The position numbers and the translations under genes were made by a program. Below the pieces are notes generated by a model, which was given only the letters and a program-made list of their open reading frames with translations, was not told the DNA's origin and ran no database searches. This document shows positions 2,117 to 8,804 of a DNA stretch of 64,000 nt, piece by piece. Every line of letters starts with the position of its first letter. The first letter of the stretch is position 1. The DNA comes from Pedobacter mucosus (GTDB taxonomy: Bacteria > Bacteroidota > Bacteroidia > Sphingobacteriales > Sphingobacteriaceae), in NCBI RefSeq assembly GCF_022200785.1, contig NZ_CP087585.1:1364001-1428000 (forward strand), read 5' to 3'.

Positions 2117-3499
2117 ATGAGACATTTCGATGCAATCATTATTGGTGCAGGCCAAGCAGGTACGCCCTTAGCAAAAAAACTTGCTGAATCAGGAAAAAAA
2201 ACAGCGATTATAGAAAAAAGAATAGTTGGCGGCACTTGTATAAATGATGGCTGTACACCAACTAAAGCAATGATCGCCTCTGCAAAAGCGGCTCATCAAG
2301 CTAGAAATGCCGGAGATTTAGGCGTAATTATTGGCGATGTAAAAGTTGATTTAAAAAAGATAAAAAAACGAAAAGACGAGATTGTAGATAGTTTTAGATC
2401 ATCAAGTGAAAAGGGAATAGCAACAACGGAAAATTTAGAACTCATTATGGGTGAAGCCGTTTTCACTTCGCCTAAAACTGTAAGTATTAATTTGAAAGAA
2501 GGTGGAACTGAAGAGGTTTCTGCAGACTGGATCTTTATAAATACAGGTGCTAAAACCATTATTCCTGATATTGAAGGAATTAAAACAATTGATTACTTAA
2601 CATCAACCTCCATTTTAGATTTAGAAGAAGTACCTGAGCATTTAGTCGTTATTGGTGGAAATTATATAGGCTTAGAATTCGGACAAATGTATAGTCGCTT
2701 TGGAAGTAAAGTTACTGTATTGGAGAAATCTACTCGTTTATTATCAAGAGAAGATGAAGATATTGCAGAAGAGTTAACAAAAATTTTAACTGAAGAAGAT
2801 ATCGAAATTTTGACTGATTCGCAGGTTAATAAAATCACAAAAACCAATGAAGAAATTGTGATTGAGCTTGATGTTAAAGGAAAAAGTAGCACTTTAAAAT
2901 GTAGTCATGTTTTAGTTGCAGTAGGTAGGAAGCCGCAAACTGAAACACTTCAGTTAGATCTCGCGGGAGTTGAAATGGATGAGAAAGGCAATATTTTAGT
3001 GAATGATAAATTAGAAACCAACGTAGCTGGCGTTTATGCTTTAGGCGATGTTAAGGGCGGTCCGGCGTTTACCCATATTGCCTACAACGATTATACGATT
3101 GTTTATCGGAACCTGATTGAGGGTACAAACTACAGTATTAAAGAGCGGCCAATTCCTTATTGCATGTTTACTGATCCACAGCTTGGAAGAGTCGGAATTT
3201 CAGAAATTGAAGCCAAAAAACAAGGTTTAAATTTCAAGGTTGCTGTTTTACCAATGGCCCAAGTTGCCCGTGGAATTGAAACTGGCCAAACCAAAGGAAT
3301 GATGAAAGCAATTGTTGATGCTGATACCAAACAAATTTTAGGTGCATCGATGCTGGCTGCAGAAGGAGGAGAGATTATGTCTATCTTAGAAATGGCAATG
3401 GAAGGTGGCATTACTTATGACCAGATTAGATATTGCGTATTTGCTCATCCAACTTATGCTGAATCTTTAAATAATCTGTTTATGAAAATAACCGATTAA
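2117..3499 (+). CDS. FAD-dependent pyridine nucleotide-disulfide oxidoreductase (mercuric reductase-like)
   Basis: A 460-residue class I flavoprotein disulfide reductase. The FAD dinucleotide-binding motif is GAGQAG (10-15), the redox-active disulfide is GGTCINDGC (C41 and C46), and a second nucleotide-binding region VVIGGNYIGLEFG lies near 180. The FAD-contacting ALGDV segment is near 310. The dimerisation domain ends with the His-Glu dyad HPTYAE (H444, E449). There is no N-terminal heavy-metal domain and no C-terminal vicinal Cys pair as in true MerA, so mercury reduction is unlikely. It is the first gene of a tight five-gene run, 6 bases before the transporter ATPase. From that context I infer a role in reducing an oxidised thiol, possibly ergothioneine disulfide; this is untested. 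Confidence 0.85.
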   Translation: MRHFDAIIIGAGQAGTPLAKKLAESGKKTAIIEKRIVGGTCINDGCTPTKAMIASAKAAHQARNAGDLGVIIGDVKVDLKKIKKRKDEIVDSFRSSSEKGIATTENLELIMGEAVFTSPKTVSINLKEGGTEEVSADWIFINTGAKTIIPDIEGIKTIDYLTSTSILDLEEVPEHLVVIGGNYIGLEFGQMYSRFGSKVTVLEKSTRLLSREDEDIAEELTKILTEEDIEILTDSQVNKITKTNEEIVIELDVKGKSSTLKCSHVLVAVGRKPQTETLQLDLAGVEMDEKGNILVNDKLETNVAGVYALGDVKGGPAFTHIAYNDYTIVYRNLIEGTNYSIKERPIPYCMFTDPQLGRVGISEIEAKKQGLNFKVAVLPMAQVARGIETGQTKGMMKAIVDADTKQILGASMLAAEGGEIMSILEMAMEGGITYDQIRYCVFAHPTYAESLNNLFMKITD

Positions 3500-3505
3500 T
3501 GAATC

Positions 3506-4468
3506 ATGATTAAAGTAGAAAGGGCAAGTAAACATTTTGGAGAAACCAAAGCGGTTAAGGAAATATCCTTTGAAGTTAAGGAGCAAGAAAATTTGGTTCT
3601 TTTAGGAACAAGTGGTTGTGGAAAAACCACCACGCTAAAAATGATTAATCGCTTAATTAATCCAGATTCTGGCATCATAACCATAAATGGCAAGAATATT
3701 CAAGACGCTAATCCTGAAATTCTTAGGCGGAGTATTGGTTATGTAATGCAATATATTGGCCTTTTTCCTCATTACACCATTTACGAAAATATTGCGATTG
3801 TACCTAAACTTTTAAAGTGGGATAAGGTTAAAACAGATAAGCGAATTGACGAATTAATTCATAAACTTCAGCTCCCAGATAATTGCTTAAAGCTTTTCCC
3901 AAATGAATTAAGTGGCGGACAACAGCAGCGGGTTGGTTTGGCCAGAGCGTTGGTTGCAGATCCGCCGGTTTTATTAATGGATGAGCCGTTTGGTGCGCTA
4001 GATAATGTGACCAGGGCTAATATTCAAGCCGAATTTAAAGCACTAGAAGAGCTAAAGAAAAAAACAATTGTAATGGTTACGCATGATGTTCAGGAAGCTT
4101 TTGAACTTGCAGATCGCATTTGTTTAATGGATAAAGGTGAAATTGTACAGATTGGAACGCCCATTGAATTATTGTATAAACCTGTAAATGATTTTTCCAG
4201 GAAGTTTTTTGATGGTCAGCGGCTTGCGCTAGAATTTAAAGTAATTAGTTTAAAGGATATCTCGTCTTTTCTGCCAAATGAAAAGGTTTCCAATAGAAAA
4301 GATATAAGTGAAAATACTTCAATTTGGACTGCAATGGAACAGATGAGAATTTATGGCGGAGATCAATTAATCATAAAATCGTCTAACGGTTCAGCTCCAA
4401 AAAGTTTAAATTTCGAGCAGCTTACTAGTGCTTTTAATCAATATCAAAATGCAATGAACCATGGTTGA
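3506..4468 (+). CDS. ABC transporter ATP-binding protein, OpuCA/EgtV type
   Basis: A 320-residue ATPase of the osmoprotectant/betaine (OpuA-OpuC) uptake family. Walker A is GTSGCGKTT (34-42), the signature is LSGGQQQR, and Walker B is LLMDEPFGALD followed by the switch His in VTHD. The stretch YIGLFPHYTIYENI is characteristic of betaine-type ATPases. Residues after about 230 form a short, degenerate CBS-like tail. It overlaps the permease/binding-protein gene by 8 bases. Betaine ATPases energise import of quaternary ammonium compounds; related EgtV energises ergothioneine import. Proximity to egtB and egtD favours an ergothioneine or hercynine-like substrate, but glycine betaine or choline cannot be excluded. 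Confidence 0.88.
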   Translation: MIKVERASKHFGETKAVKEISFEVKEQENLVLLGTSGCGKTTTLKMINRLINPDSGIITINGKNIQDANPEILRRSIGYVMQYIGLFPHYTIYENIAIVPKLLKWDKVKTDKRIDELIHKLQLPDNCLKLFPNELSGGQQQRVGLARALVADPPVLLMDEPFGALDNVTRANIQAEFKALEELKKKTIVMVTHDVQEAFELADRICLMDKGEIVQIGTPIELLYKPVNDFSRKFFDGQRLALEFKVISLKDISSFLPNEKVSNRKDISENTSIWTAMEQMRIYGGDQLIIKSSNGSAPKSLNFEQLTSAFNQYQNAMNHG

Positions 4469-6032
4469 ACAGCAACAGGGCCTATTTTCATTCATGGCTC
4501 AAGAATCAGATAAACTAATTACGCAAACGTTTCAGCACATTGGCTTAACATTTATTTCGCTTCTTTTTGCCATTTTAATTGGCTTACCACTTGGAATTTT
4601 AATAGCTCGAAAACGCAAATTGTCGCCTTCGGTTATTGGTGTTGCCGGAGTTTTACAAACCATTCCAAGCATTGCATTATTGGGTTTCATGATTCCAGTT
4701 TTAGGAATTGGCGCAAAACCTGCAATCGTTGCCTTATTAATATACGCTTTACTACCCATTATTCGAAACACGTATACGGGCATTATTGGTATAGATAAAC
4801 ACATTATTGAAGCTGCAAAAGCAATGGGAATGAGCAAATGGCAAATCCTTTTAAATGTAGAGTTTCCATTGGCAATGCCTGTTATTTTAGCGGGGATACG
4901 AACCGCAACGGTTATAAATGTTGGCGTTGCTACACTTGCATCATACATTGCTGCGGGAGGTTTGGGCGAGTTTATTTTTGGGGGAATATCATTAAATAAC
5001 ACCAACATGATATTGGCTGGTGCAATTCCGGCAGCATTATTAGCCATTCTGCTTGATCTTTTACTTTCAGGCATTCAAAAATTCAATTTTAAAAAATTAC
5101 GATATGGCTTAATCGCATTGCCTGTTTTAATTGTTGTTTTTGGGTTTTTTTACCTTATTCCAAATGTATATGGATCAAAGCTTACTGCAGGTTTTACGCC
5201 TGAGTTTATGGGCAGGCAAGATGGCGATTTAGGATTAAAATCTGCTTACGGTTTGAAAATTCATACCATTGTGATTAGTGATGCAGTAATGTATAAAGCC
5301 GCTTATGCCAAAGAATTAGATGTTATTAGCGGATATTCTACCGATGGTAGACTCAAAGCTTTCAACTTAACCATCCTTAAGGATGATAAAGGCATATTTC
5401 CGCCATATTATGCAGCGCCAATTATAAGATCTAGTTCTTTGCAAAAATTTCCAGGCTTGGAAGAAGTTCTTAATAAACTTGCCGGACAAATTACCGATTC
5501 AGTAATGACAGATCTAAATTATAGAACTGATTACCTCCATCAGGTTCCAGAAAGGGTAGCAAAAGATTTTTTAATAAAAAAAGGGTTGTGGAAAGCCTCC
5601 CGTAATGGAAAAGATGGCATTGTCCGTATCGGTTCTAAAATTTTCGGCGAACAATATATTTTGGCAGAAATGTATAGCATGCTAATTAAAGGTTATACGG
5701 ATTATGGCGTTTCAACTAAAACAGGTTTAGGCGGTACAAAAATTTGCTTTGATGCACTTGTTAATGATCAGATAGATTTTTACCCTGAATACACCGGCAC
5801 TGGCTTATTGGTTTTGCTGCAGCCTGATAAGAAGATGGCGCAAAACATTGCTCATGATAAGGATAAAACTTATGATTATGTAAAAGCAGAATTCAAGAAA
5901 AAATACAATATTGATTGGCTAAAACCAATTGGTTTTAATAATTCATATGCTTTGATGATGAGACAAAAACAATCTCAAGAACTTAATGTTAATACGATTA
6001 CCGCACTTAAAAAATATTTAGATAATAAATAA
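4461..6032 (+). CDS. ABC transporter permease fused to a circularly permuted substrate-binding domain (OpuC/EgtU-like)
   Basis: A 523-residue fusion. Residues 20-205 are a betaine-type permease with about five or six membrane helices and an EAA loop (EAAKAMGMSKW from 117). A further helix near 215-234 is followed by an extracytoplasmic binding domain, 239-523. In canonical OpuBC/OpuCC/EgtU proteins the order is IGSK, LGGT, YPEYTGT, NNSYAL, then STDGR and FPPY. Here STDGR (293-297) and FPPY (313-316) come first, then IGSK (390-393), LGGT (423-426), YPEYTGT (441-447) and NNSYAL (493-498). The protein ends on the helix that normally leads into the strand found here at 240, as in a circular permutation. 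Overlap with the ATPase gene and direct abutment to egtB argue for one transcript. Ergothioneine import is an inference from context. Confidence 0.85.
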   Translation: MVEQQQGLFSFMAQESDKLITQTFQHIGLTFISLLFAILIGLPLGILIARKRKLSPSVIGVAGVLQTIPSIALLGFMIPVLGIGAKPAIVALLIYALLPIIRNTYTGIIGIDKHIIEAAKAMGMSKWQILLNVEFPLAMPVILAGIRTATVINVGVATLASYIAAGGLGEFIFGGISLNNTNMILAGAIPAALLAILLDLLLSGIQKFNFKKLRYGLIALPVLIVVFGFFYLIPNVYGSKLTAGFTPEFMGRQDGDLGLKSAYGLKIHTIVISDAVMYKAAYAKELDVISGYSTDGRLKAFNLTILKDDKGIFPPYYAAPIIRSSSLQKFPGLEEVLNKLAGQITDSVMTDLNYRTDYLHQVPERVAKDFLIKKGLWKASRNGKDGIVRIGSKIFGEQYILAEMYSMLIKGYTDYGVSTKTGLGGTKICFDALVNDQIDFYPEYTGTGLLVLLQPDKKMAQNIAHDKDKTYDYVKAEFKKKYNIDWLKPIGFNNSYALMMRQKQSQELNVNTITALKKYLDNK

Positions 6033-7184
6033 ATGAATCTCTCTGCACAATATAAAGCGATACGAAACTACTCTGAAAAAATTTGTGAACCGTTGCAAAC
6101 AGAGGATTATGTTGTTCAGCCAATTGTTGATGTTAGTCCGCCGAAGTGGCATTTAGGGCACACAACATGGTTTTTCGAAACTTTTATTTTGACGCCTTAT
6201 TTAACCAATTATCAGGTTTTTAATAAAGATTATAATTATGTTTTTAATAGTTATTATGAAACGGTAGGGAACAGGGTTATTAGAACAGACCGCGGAAATT
6301 TATCTAGGCCAAGTGTTAACGATGTTTATCAATATCGAAAATATGTTGATGAAGCTATGGAAAGTTTGTTAACAAATGAAGTGAATGCAGAACTCGAAGA
6401 ACTTCTGATTTTGGGTTTCAACCATGAGCAACAGCATCAAGAATTATTACTTACTGATATTAAATATATTTTGGGTAATAATCCATTGTTCCCAGCTTAC
6501 TCGGCAGATTTATTTAAACCAAAAAATGAAGCTAAAAACGAAGTTTCTTTCGTACATATTTCCGAAGGCGTTTATGACATTGGTTATGAAGGGGTAGATT
6601 TTTCCTTTGATAACGAACTTAACAGACACAAAGTTTATCTTCAAAATTTTTCAATTGCAAAGGAGCTTGTTAACAATGCAGAATACTTGCAATTTATTCA
6701 AGATGGAGGTTATCAAAACTTTAGTTATTGGCATGCGGAAGGATGGGATTGGGTTAATGTAAACAAGATTTCTGCTCCTATGTATTGGCATAATATAGAT
6801 AACAGCTGGTATAACTACACATACCAGGGCTTAGAAAAATTAAATTTAATACAGCCAATAACACATATAAGTTATTACGAAGCTTATGCACTTGCAAGTT
6901 GGAAAGGCATGCGTTTGCCTACAGAATTTGAATGGGAAATTGCAGCCAAACAGTTTAATTGGGGCGAAAGATGGGAGTGGACGGAAAGTGCTTATTTGCC
7001 TTATCCAGGATTTAATAAAGCTCCAGGAGCTATTGGAGAGTATAATGGTAAATTTATGGTGAATCAAAAAGTGCTTAGAGGCGCTTCAATTGTTACACCA
7101 GAAAATCACAGTAGAATAACATATCGCAATTTTTTTCATCCACATTTAAGATGGCAATTTACTGGAATTCGCCTAGCCAAATAA
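6033..7184 (+). CDS. egtB: Ergothioneine biosynthesis protein EgtB (sulfoxide synthase)
   Basis: A 383-residue nonheme iron enzyme expected to couple hercynine to a thiol donor (cysteine or gamma-glutamylcysteine) with O2. The N-terminal DinB-like half carries the iron-binding triad: H43 in KWHLGHTTW, and H131 and H135 in HEQQHQE. The C-terminal half is an FGE/sulfatase-modifying fold with RLPTEFEWE and a closing YRNFFHPHLRWQFTGIRL. There is no fused methyltransferase as in OvoA, and egtD follows 9 bases later, so ergothioneine rather than ovothiol is the likely product. The start codon directly follows the stop of the transporter gene. No egtA, egtC or egtE is nearby, so donor and C-S lyase are unresolved. 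Confidence 0.9.
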   Translation: MNLSAQYKAIRNYSEKICEPLQTEDYVVQPIVDVSPPKWHLGHTTWFFETFILTPYLTNYQVFNKDYNYVFNSYYETVGNRVIRTDRGNLSRPSVNDVYQYRKYVDEAMESLLTNEVNAELEELLILGFNHEQQHQELLLTDIKYILGNNPLFPAYSADLFKPKNEAKNEVSFVHISEGVYDIGYEGVDFSFDNELNRHKVYLQNFSIAKELVNNAEYLQFIQDGGYQNFSYWHAEGWDWVNVNKISAPMYWHNIDNSWYNYTYQGLEKLNLIQPITHISYYEAYALASWKGMRLPTEFEWEIAAKQFNWGERWEWTESAYLPYPGFNKAPGAIGEYNGKFMVNQKVLRGASIVTPENHSRITYRNFFHPHLRWQFTGIRLAK

Positions 7185-7193
7185 TTATATCTT

Positions 7194-8171
7194 ATGATTA
7201 ACATGTCTACTAAAACTAAAAAAATCGATCAAAGCGAGCAGTTTTGTATTGATACCATAAATGGATTAAATGCTAATCCAAAATATTTGAGTTCAAAGTA
7301 TTTTTATGATCAAACTGGTGATCAAATATTTCAGCAAATTATGGATGCTGATGAATATTATTTAACCAATTCGGAGATGGAAATTTTTGCAACTCAAACC
7401 GAAGAACTTGCAAAAACAATAGCGCTTAATGGTTATCCGTTCGATTTAATTGAACTTGGTGCAGGCGATGCCACAAAATCTATCCATTTACTTAAGCAGC
7501 TTATTTCTGATGAAATGGATTTTCATTATCTGCCAATTGATATATCAGAAAATGTGATTAATCTTTTATCTGAAACTTTACCAGCTCAACTTCCCGAGCT
7601 AAAAATGAAAGGGTTAAATGGAGAGTATTTTGAAATGCTAAAAGAAGCAGCAAGTTTTTCTAACAGGAGAAAAGTAGTGCTTTTTATGGGTGCAAATATT
7701 GGCAATATGACTCCAGAGGAAGCTGCTCATTTTTGTGAAGATCTGCGAAATCAGTTGATGGATGGTGATATGCTTATAATTGGTTTCGACCTTAAAAAAA
7801 ATCCCCTGCAAATTCTTTCTGCTTACAGCGATAGTAAAGGTGTAACCAAATCGTTTAATCTTAATCTGCTTCGCAGGATAAATCGCGAAATTGGTGCAGA
7901 TTTCAATACTGATAAATTTGATCATTATGCAAGCTACGACCCAATTAGTGGCGCTTGTAAAAGCTTCCTAATTAGTTTGCAAGATCAGCAGGTTATGATC
8001 AATGGCGAGTCTATTTCGTTTAATAAAAACGAACCCATCTACATGGAAATTTCTCAAAAATATAATCTTGATGAAATTGATGCAATGATGACGGGCTGTG
8101 GGTTTAAACCCGTTAAAAACTTTTTAGATGCAAAAGAATATTTTGTAGATTCTATTTGGCAAGTTGGGTAG
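7194..8171 (+). CDS. egtD: L-histidine N-alpha-methyltransferase EgtD
   Basis: A 325-residue SAM-dependent methyltransferase that trimethylates histidine to hercynine, the first step of ergothioneine synthesis. The SAM-binding motif is ELGAGDATKS, and the family-specific FMGANIGN corresponds to the GSTIGN loop that holds the substrate amino group. The late YMEISQKY matches the Glu/Ser segment that binds the imidazole. The ATG at 7194 is used; an alternative ATG lies 9 bases downstream. It is the last gene of the operon and is followed after 6 bases by a convergent gene with no visible terminator between them. Confidence 0.92.
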   Translation: MINMSTKTKKIDQSEQFCIDTINGLNANPKYLSSKYFYDQTGDQIFQQIMDADEYYLTNSEMEIFATQTEELAKTIALNGYPFDLIELGAGDATKSIHLLKQLISDEMDFHYLPIDISENVINLLSETLPAQLPELKMKGLNGEYFEMLKEAASFSNRRKVVLFMGANIGNMTPEEAAHFCEDLRNQLMDGDMLIIGFDLKKNPLQILSAYSDSKGVTKSFNLNLLRRINREIGADFNTDKFDHYASYDPISGACKSFLISLQDQQVMINGESISFNKNEPIYMEISQKYNLDEIDAMMTGCGFKPVKNFLDAKEYFVDSIWQVG

Positions 8172-8177
8172 TTAATT

Positions 8178-8804
8178 TTATTTTTTATCCACCGCAATGT
8201 TGATCATTTTATCTTCTACCTTATTTTTCCCTGAAAAGAAAATATAAAATATTAAGGCGCTAATGATTAAAAAGAAGCTTAAATACACGCTCACAAAACT
8301 TAAAATAGCGGCAAGTAAATAACAAATTGGTCCTACTATGGCTATCCTAGCGGCAGTTTTATAAGTACTTGGAGTCAGCGCTTCATGCTTAACCCTACTT
8401 TCAGATAAAATATATCGAAGTAAAACCAAATGCATAATGGCTATAATAAAAAGTGTTGCGGCATAAATAAATATAGCCGTTGGCAAAAGAGGGTTTTCTG
8501 ATAAAATCCCTGCAGATAATGGTACGACGGCGATAAATAACAGATACAAAATATTAAGCCATAAAAGCGTCCGATTTGGAATTTCTACGAAAGTAAAAAT
8601 TCGATGGTGTGCTACCCAAAAGACACCAATTACAATAAAGCTGAAACCAAAACTTGCCAGTGGAGGTAATGCATTATAGAGTATATGATAGAGTTGCGCA
8701 TTATTTATATCCCTCATACTTGGTATTTTTACATTTAAAATTAGCAACGTTATCGCTATCGAGAATACACCATCCGAAAAGTTTTCAAGCCGATTTTTAT
8801 TCAA
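8178..8804 (-). CDS. TMEM175 family (DUF1211) membrane protein
   Basis: A 208-residue integral membrane protein with about six hydrophobic segments. The first helix carries the family signature RLENFSDGVFSIAITLLIL, which lines the pore in prokaryotic TMEM175 potassium-selective channels. Length and the single-repeat layout agree with bacterial members, which assemble as tetramers. The gene runs toward egtD with a 6-base gap and seems to be transcribed alone. Ion selectivity is known for the family, not shown here. Confidence 0.85.
   Translation of the reverse strand: MNKNRLENFSDGVFSIAITLLILNVKIPSMRDINNAQLYHILYNALPPLASFGFSFIVIGVFWVAHHRIFTFVEIPNRTLLWLNILYLLFIAVVPLSAGILSENPLLPTAIFIYAATLFIIAIMHLVLLRYILSESRVKHEALTPSTYKTAARIAIVGPICYLLAAILSFVSVYLSFFLIISALIFYIFFSGKNKVEDKMINIAVDKK

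Follow-up and report, generated by a model that had tools for sequence, protein, structure and literature searches.

In a 64,000-nucleotide stretch of Pedobacter mucosus DNA (contig NZ_CP087585.1, positions 1,364,001 to 1,428,000; hereafter the window), one gene encodes a permease fused to a substrate-binding domain whose two halves stand in swapped order. The protein is very probably the membrane and binding subunit, in one chain, of a type I ATP-binding cassette (ABC) importer, and its binding domain a true circular permutant that is conserved and probably functional. More broadly, we consider it likely that such binding domains resemble a ring made of two interchangeable pseudo-repeats, and that the point where the ring opens has switched to and fro during evolution. 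One and the same cut would then have appeared independently in OpuA-type proteins, in the ergothioneine-linked fusion of Bacteroidota, and at least nine times (as gains or losses) among free lipoproteins, by way of tandem intermediates that survive, and circular permutation would have a natural hot spot here.

The binding domain is circularly permuted

Below, T denotes the permease, and H1 and H2 the canonical first and second halves of the binding domain; domain order was read with hidden Markov models (HMMs) for T, H1 and H2 that were built in this analysis. The fusion gene consists of the following parts:

4461..6032, forward strand: permease joined in one chain to a circularly permuted substrate-binding domain, 523 amino acids (open reading frame, Pfam, PDB-sequence match, AlphaFold2 model)
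4461..5102, forward strand: permease part (BPD_transp_1), residues 1-214
5088..5171, forward strand: last membrane helix and tether of the binding domain, residues 210-237 (AlphaFold2 helix; low confidence at 233-238)
5175..5597, forward strand: H2, the canonical second half placed first, residues 239-379 (EgtUC 138-276; PF04069 114-256)
5598..5615, forward strand: short joint linking the old C terminus to the old N terminus, residues 380-385 (HMM gap)
5616..6029, forward strand: H1, the canonical first half placed last, residues 386-523 (EgtUC 8-135; PF04069 3-114)

The order is swapped because phmmer, run against PDB sequences, aligned residues 240-378 to the second half of EgtUC (9egi, 138-276) and residues 387-519 to the first (8-135), with an E-value of 1.4e-55 for the whole match. 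Likewise, the OpuAC profile PF04069 (F-III quaternary-ammonium binding domains) was matched with profile positions 114-256 before 3-114, at 178.2 bits against a cut-off of 21.2. The binding domain proper spans residues 239-523 (bases 5175-6029), while the permease part fits the type I ABC importer permeases (PF00528) by both profile and fold. In the AlphaFold2 model, the binding domain is two-lobed, and a fold search found the model collinear over 243 residues (16% identity) with Bacillus subtilis OpuAC (PDB 2b4l), a known permutant. Foldseek aligned the model to EgtUC across one half only, at 42% identity. Permeases filled the list that VIA-align gave for the entire model, and EgtUC is missing from it, an absence that is not used as evidence here.

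An earlier note, made from the sequence alone, had described a 523-residue frame with STDGR (293-297) and FPPY (313-316) ahead of IGSK (390-393), LGGT (423-426), YPEYTGT (441-447) and NNSYAL (493-498), and had read this as a permutation inside a permease fusion. All motifs lie at these residues of the frame at 4461-6032 on the forward strand, and the permutation itself stands on the half-wise EgtUC alignment, the PF04069 order and the domain orders of homologues. The note was also right about the C-terminal helix: in the model, helix 513-522 is the one that canonically joins the strand found here just after the last membrane helix (242-245).

The swapped order is conserved among homologues of its clade

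Homologues were searched with the window protein and with a 46-47%-identical relative whose neighbours are named Fodinibius and Balneolaceae; for each query, about 8000 candidates were scored and the best 120 listed, queries included. Among these 240 rows, 237 had the order T-H2-H1 and three T-T-H2-H1, so the survey of fused homologues that the earlier note had proposed found the swap across the clade. Three proteins (P0188, P0190 and P0197; 779-805 residues) combine a doubled permease with a single permuted binding domain per chain, and perhaps represent a transporter with a single binding domain. One Pedobacter-like permuted importer (P0063) is filed publicly under Agrobacterium tumefaciens, which is probably contamination or mislabelling.

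A survey of 395 genomes of the window's phylum gave 61 with a match, of which 22 carried T-H2-H1 (L001, L082-L102). Among the other 39, the eight loci that were fetched (L103-L110) had the order H1-H2-T, with the binding domain first. For counting, 31 genomes were taken as binding-domain-first, namely the eight fetched and checked and 23 assigned by inference, as a permease hit lay within a frame of 490-601 codons. The remaining eight (G100, G105, G226, G237, G277, G301, G321 and G336) matched solely through a weak hit to the permease, within frames of 274-292 codons, and were excluded from the counts of EgtD and EgtB given below. The binding-domain-first order is thus a second fusion architecture, seen in L103-L110, L226 and L227, with a signal-like start in L103.

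Outside the phylum, single-chain fusions among the loci fetched from 348 Bacillota genomes had the order T-H1-H2, as in EgtUBC, and among the matches listed from 349 Pseudomonadota genomes, none extended beyond the permease part. Long matches in Cohnella and Paenibacillus were considered as fusions and rejected, as their loci hold separate genes for a permease and a canonical binding protein. In a quick permease tree, the permuted fusions formed one clade (support 95) that did not fall inside the EgtU-like fusions of Bacillota (100), with poorly supported near neighbours; a quick domain tree placed them beside five free binding proteins of Bacillota (82).

These data also bear on whether a chimera or, as the earlier note had cautioned, a frameshift or assembly error could have faked the order. 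The gene is a single open frame without an internal stop, all 240 listed rows and 22 genomes share its order, and its residues are conserved across the clade, so that the probability of an artefact is negligible. The swapped order is a conserved variant.

The cut falls within lobe D2, between two weakly similar halves

To place the cut, 229 was added to EgtUC chain positions to give SpEgtUBC numbers, a conversion fixed on K242, F293, T296 and T274. This puts the cut at about 364/367, where it splits the domain into two nearly equal halves. With the lobes given for SpEgtUBC (D1, 233-331 and 445-506; D2, 341-432; PMC9732360), this position is inside D2, about 25 residues beyond the hinge between the lobes at which the earlier note had put the break.

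A profile comparison of H1 and H2 aligned the two in the same register (E = 2.7e-4, probability 42%). On match columns alone, the score was 25.7, against a maximum of 22.3 in column shuffles (100 of 100 beaten) and 13.7 for a reversed profile. Though weak, this signal places the cut at the border of two weakly similar pseudo-repeats, and it fits the duplication origin proposed for binding proteins (PMC9815098). A further sign of pseudo-symmetry is that a canonical relative, 4z7e, aligned out of phase over 321 columns at 13% identity. Each half appears to supply the core of one lobe and, in addition, a strand and a helix that it contributes to the other, which would explain why the swap is tolerated and why both orders would fold alike.

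The new joint between the former termini is short: across 333 permuted fusions, counting duplicates, it measures 5-12 residues with a median of 6, and free permuted proteins have 5-8. Measured from the permease HMM to the domain, the tether has a median of 25 residues in the 333 permuted rows versus 24 in 15 canonical-fusion rows.

In importers of this kind, the loaded binding domain docks on the permease pair. The permuted domain would act as an ordinary Venus flytrap, tethered via lobe D2 rather than D1, and would dock on the two-fold symmetric pair with each permease touching one lobe. In OpuA, V149 of the two OpuABC subunits contacts different lobes of one docked domain, according to PMC11065425. 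Tethering by D2 instead of D1 could be nearly neutral, because a pseudo-symmetric domain sits on a two-fold symmetric platform. The earlier note had suggested that the permutation could change docking, for instance, as one might imagine, with each domain serving the neighbouring permease. The attachment to D2 speaks for such a change; however, the tether is about as long as in canonical fusions, and the free permuted lipoproteins described below share the swap without any permease tether, which means that an effect on tethering is not its general cause. We therefore regard altered docking as doubtful, and prefer a pseudo-symmetric domain that may dock as before.

Domain order has changed repeatedly

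Free lipoproteins with the order H2-H1 were also found. Shared 4-mers served to thin the tree set from 429 rows to 96, after which 20 of the 40 T-H2-H1 representatives were also dropped. In the maximum-likelihood tree of the resulting 76 domains, all put into canonical order, the T-H2-H1 and T-T-H2-H1 proteins were separate from the three free H2-H1 lipoproteins that had been found first. At least two order changes were required, and a single clade of all permuted rows was rejected by the approximately unbiased (AU) test (p-AU 0.0025, after removal of three further rows, two long and one duplicate). The swap arose separately in Bacteroidota fusions and in free lipoproteins of the Clostridia type.

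A search with one free permuted protein listed 120 rows, comprising 65 H2-H1, 51 H1-H2 and four tandem proteins. After removal of three long rows and near-copies (116 to 83), a careful tree of the remaining 83 required at least nine order changes; its starred branches alone force nine, the bootstrap trees gave nine throughout (9-9), and a single permuted clade was rejected (p-AU 2.5e-50). Quick trees of H1 and H2 taken apart required 12 and 11 changes, with starred branches forcing three in each. In the opposite-order pair P0266/P0256, identity is 88% in H1 and 84% in H2, and both proteins have lipoprotein-like signals as judged by eye. An early tree from three genomes only had shown the permuted free lipoproteins as one clade, which was rejected since the larger trees show mixed orders.

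As metagenome assembly errors were to be excluded, the analysis was repeated on whole genomes alone (398 genomes, E = 1e-40, at most five candidates scored per genome). Such a lipoprotein was found in 20 genomes, eight with a permuted copy and 13 with a canonical one, G1148 having both. The tree of these proteins, which includes three long rows, gave four order changes, two of them forced by starred branches, and again rejected one permuted clade (p-AU 1.4e-6). Two genomes, G701 and G1167, each contain two permuted free binding proteins, and a search of 22 genomes from the class of G767 gave three permuted copies, all already found.

A reading with few permutations, in which the apparent flips reflect gene conversion between permuted and canonical paralogues in one cell, or reversals, draws on the fact that parsimony cannot separate gain from loss, and on G1148, the one of eight permuted-copy genomes that also holds a canonical copy. 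Against it, the other seven had only permuted copies at the threshold and candidate number given above, and the H1 and H2 trees each need many changes. We judge it quite unlikely and favour repeated changes of order.

Permutation by duplication predicts tandem intermediates (PMC3320104), and the mechanism we propose is of this kind: tandem duplication would give H1-H2-H1-H2, from which the outer halves are then lost. The four tandem proteins are P0251, with the order H1-H2-H1-H2 and an incomplete first H1; P0262 and P0275, with H1-H2-H1 and an incomplete last H1; and P0271, with H2-H1-H2 and an incomplete first H2. Their copies are 87-100% alike, and we read the incomplete end halves as cut by contig ends. 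The tandem proteins group beside canonical rows, which proves the intermediate as a form and leaves the line of descent unproven. Two of the four are labelled Chloroflexi/Anaerolineales.

The fusion swap could also be the old OpuAC permutation, simply inherited. The profile cut and the path of the chain in the fold search are the same, and the Cohnella protein P0243 is a permease fusion of that kind, with the order T-H2-H1 and colinear with 2b4l. However, the nearest sequences to the window domain are canonical EgtUC, OpuBC-type and AfProX proteins; our H2 HMM reached OpuAC-type proteins only at 1e-3 to 1e-4, our H1 HMM reached none at 1e-3, and OpuAC was absent among the PDB-sequence matches of the window protein found by phmmer. 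OpuAC is described as binding its ligand with tryptophans (PMC9732360), whereas the window domain has Tyr/Phe at those cage positions. In addition, Lactococcus lactis OpuA is canonical (T-H1-H2), which implies that the OpuA family has a flip of its own; judged by sequence distance, this flip would be separate from the fusion swap. A reading of L. lactis OpuAC as permuted like its B. subtilis counterpart is refuted by this order. Inheritance from OpuAC is very improbable, and the fusion swap is probably of separate origin, as judged from sequence distance and fold.

The importer is linked to ergothioneine synthesis

The fusion gene stands in a cluster with the following genes:

2117..3499, forward strand: flavin adenine dinucleotide (FAD)-dependent pyridine nucleotide-disulfide oxidoreductase, which opens the cluster (Pfam Pyr_redox_2; NCBIfam PRK06370-type, under the NCBIfam cut-off)
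3506..4468, forward strand: ProV-like ATPase of the importer (TIGR01186 proV, 303.1 bits, below the cut-off of 326.6), overlapping the fusion gene by 8 bases
6033..7184, forward strand: EgtB, ergothioneine sulfoxide synthase (TIGR03440, 543.9 bits, cut-off 360)
7194..8171, forward strand: EgtD, histidine N-alpha-methyltransferase, which makes hercynine (PF10017, 318.9 bits; TIGR03438, 281.8 bits, just under 290.9)

Both EgtB and EgtD lay by the transporter in 50 of 53 loci, and at least one of them in 51. In wider windows around 14 further permuted loci, EgtB and/or EgtD were found in eight, in several gene orders. At the level of genomes, EgtD was present in 24/24 with the permuted fusion and 30/31 counted as binding-domain-first, versus 3/20 without a match; for EgtB, at E = 1e-115 or better, the counts were 22/24 and 25/31, against 3/20 whose E-values lay within a factor of three of this threshold. 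Based on this gene context, the ligand is on balance ergothioneine or hercynine, in cells that also make it; together with the upstream ATPase, the importer would take up ergothioneine or its precursor hercynine. As two permuted-fusion genomes (G120 and G403) contain EgtD and lack a strong EgtB match, hercynine stays a possible ligand. Five genomes that are binding-domain-first by inference (G383, G234, G186, G238 and G367) combine EgtD and importer with an absent or weak EgtB match. Genomes of this kind may stop at hercynine or may add the sulfur by a different step.

The ligand pocket was compared using the residue roles given in PMC9732360. The aromatic cage, which holds the quaternary ammonium group, and its asparagine and charged partners are present in the window protein (Y444, Y496, Y292, Y316, N494, K393, E248 and R252). 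Across 332 T-H2-H1 rows, duplicates included, K393, T426, Y444, T447, N494, E248, R252 and Y316 are invariant, while Y496 is found in 331 (F in one), F492 in 330 (Y in two) and Y292 in 324 (F in eight); at position 395, 254 rows have F and 78 have Q. In the window protein, the pocket follows the AfProX pattern, and the SpEgtU specificity residues G244, F293 and Y337, where G244 and the F293/Y337 switch are tied to ergothioneine affinity (PMC9732360), are replaced by F395, Y444 and F492. The pocket alone thus does not predict ergothioneine, and it is the EgtB and EgtD neighbours that point there.

Uptake of glycine betaine, choline or another osmolyte, with the Egt neighbours incidental, would agree with the AfProX-like residues and with source names, which, where given, often indicate osmoprotectant transport. 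The near-constant presence of EgtD in permuted-fusion genomes argues otherwise, as do the varied arrangements in which different families occur together with EgtB/EgtD and the two binding-domain-first loci, L226 and L227, that also adjoin EgtB/EgtD. An osmolyte is a possible ligand, though the less probable one, and we retain ergothioneine or hercynine.

In two Flavobacterium loci (L043 and L052), the permuted importer lies away from EgtB and EgtD, which sit together elsewhere in the same genomes. An oxidoreductase like that at 2117-3499, a flavoprotein disulfide reductase resembling mercuric reductase and RclA, was found in 49 of 53 related loci; it could possibly reduce oxidised ergothioneine. 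A gene for a TMEM175-type potassium channel (8178-8804, reverse strand; PF06736, 90 bits) adjoins the cluster on the opposite strand. A scan for promoters and terminators found 30 promoter-like sites against 25.6 expected, and nothing notable.

Comparison with known systems

Permuted binding proteins as such are already known (OpuAC and TpMglB-2), and the cut is that known for OpuAC versus ProX (PMC2395249). In the searches made of open-licence full texts, we found no report of permutation in this fusion family, of a link between a permuted fusion and ergothioneine synthesis, or of repeated flips at one cut among close relatives.

Among the closest described systems is SpEgtUABC, the ergothioneine importer of Streptococcus pneumoniae (PMC9732360), which likewise joins permease and binding domain in one chain and has a ProV-like ATPase. 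Identity is 42% over the Foldseek-aligned half, and most pocket residues are common; however, SpEgtU has the order T-H1-H2 where the window protein has T-H2-H1. The same source describes SpEgtU host cells as not making ergothioneine, whereas the window importer adjoins EgtB and EgtD, and places SpEgtU homologues nearly only in Firmicutes. The present fusions point to an importer group in Bacteroidota that synthesise ergothioneine.

B. subtilis OpuAC (2b4l), a permutant of ProX with less than 24% identity to it (PMC2395249), agrees with the window domain in chain order, cut position and fold from end to end. It differs in its distant sequence, its tryptophan cage and its free-standing form, and its swap is judged independent. 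L. lactis OpuA (PDB 7ahc/7ahd; PMC11065425) shares with the window protein the short-tethered fusion of permease and binding domain and the permease fold, but is canonical. For transport, the swap suggests that a binding domain can be tethered through either of its lobes. TpMglB-2 (Tp0684; PMC4990184), a glucose-binding protein, is also a natural circular permutant of a substrate-binding protein; it has a type I fold and a different cut that adds a fourth lobe crossing, and its permuted part matches canonical relatives poorly. Annotation that is blind to order may split or misname such permuted proteins.

In these earlier permutants, as far as their sources describe them, the two orders are far apart, so that the origin of the swap is not visible. 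Here, the tandem intermediates predicted for permutation by duplication (PMC3320104) are found, and a single family has switched order many times. With permuted and canonical forms this close and tandem intermediates extant, it becomes possible to test directly both whether the swap arises by duplication and whether it is neutral.
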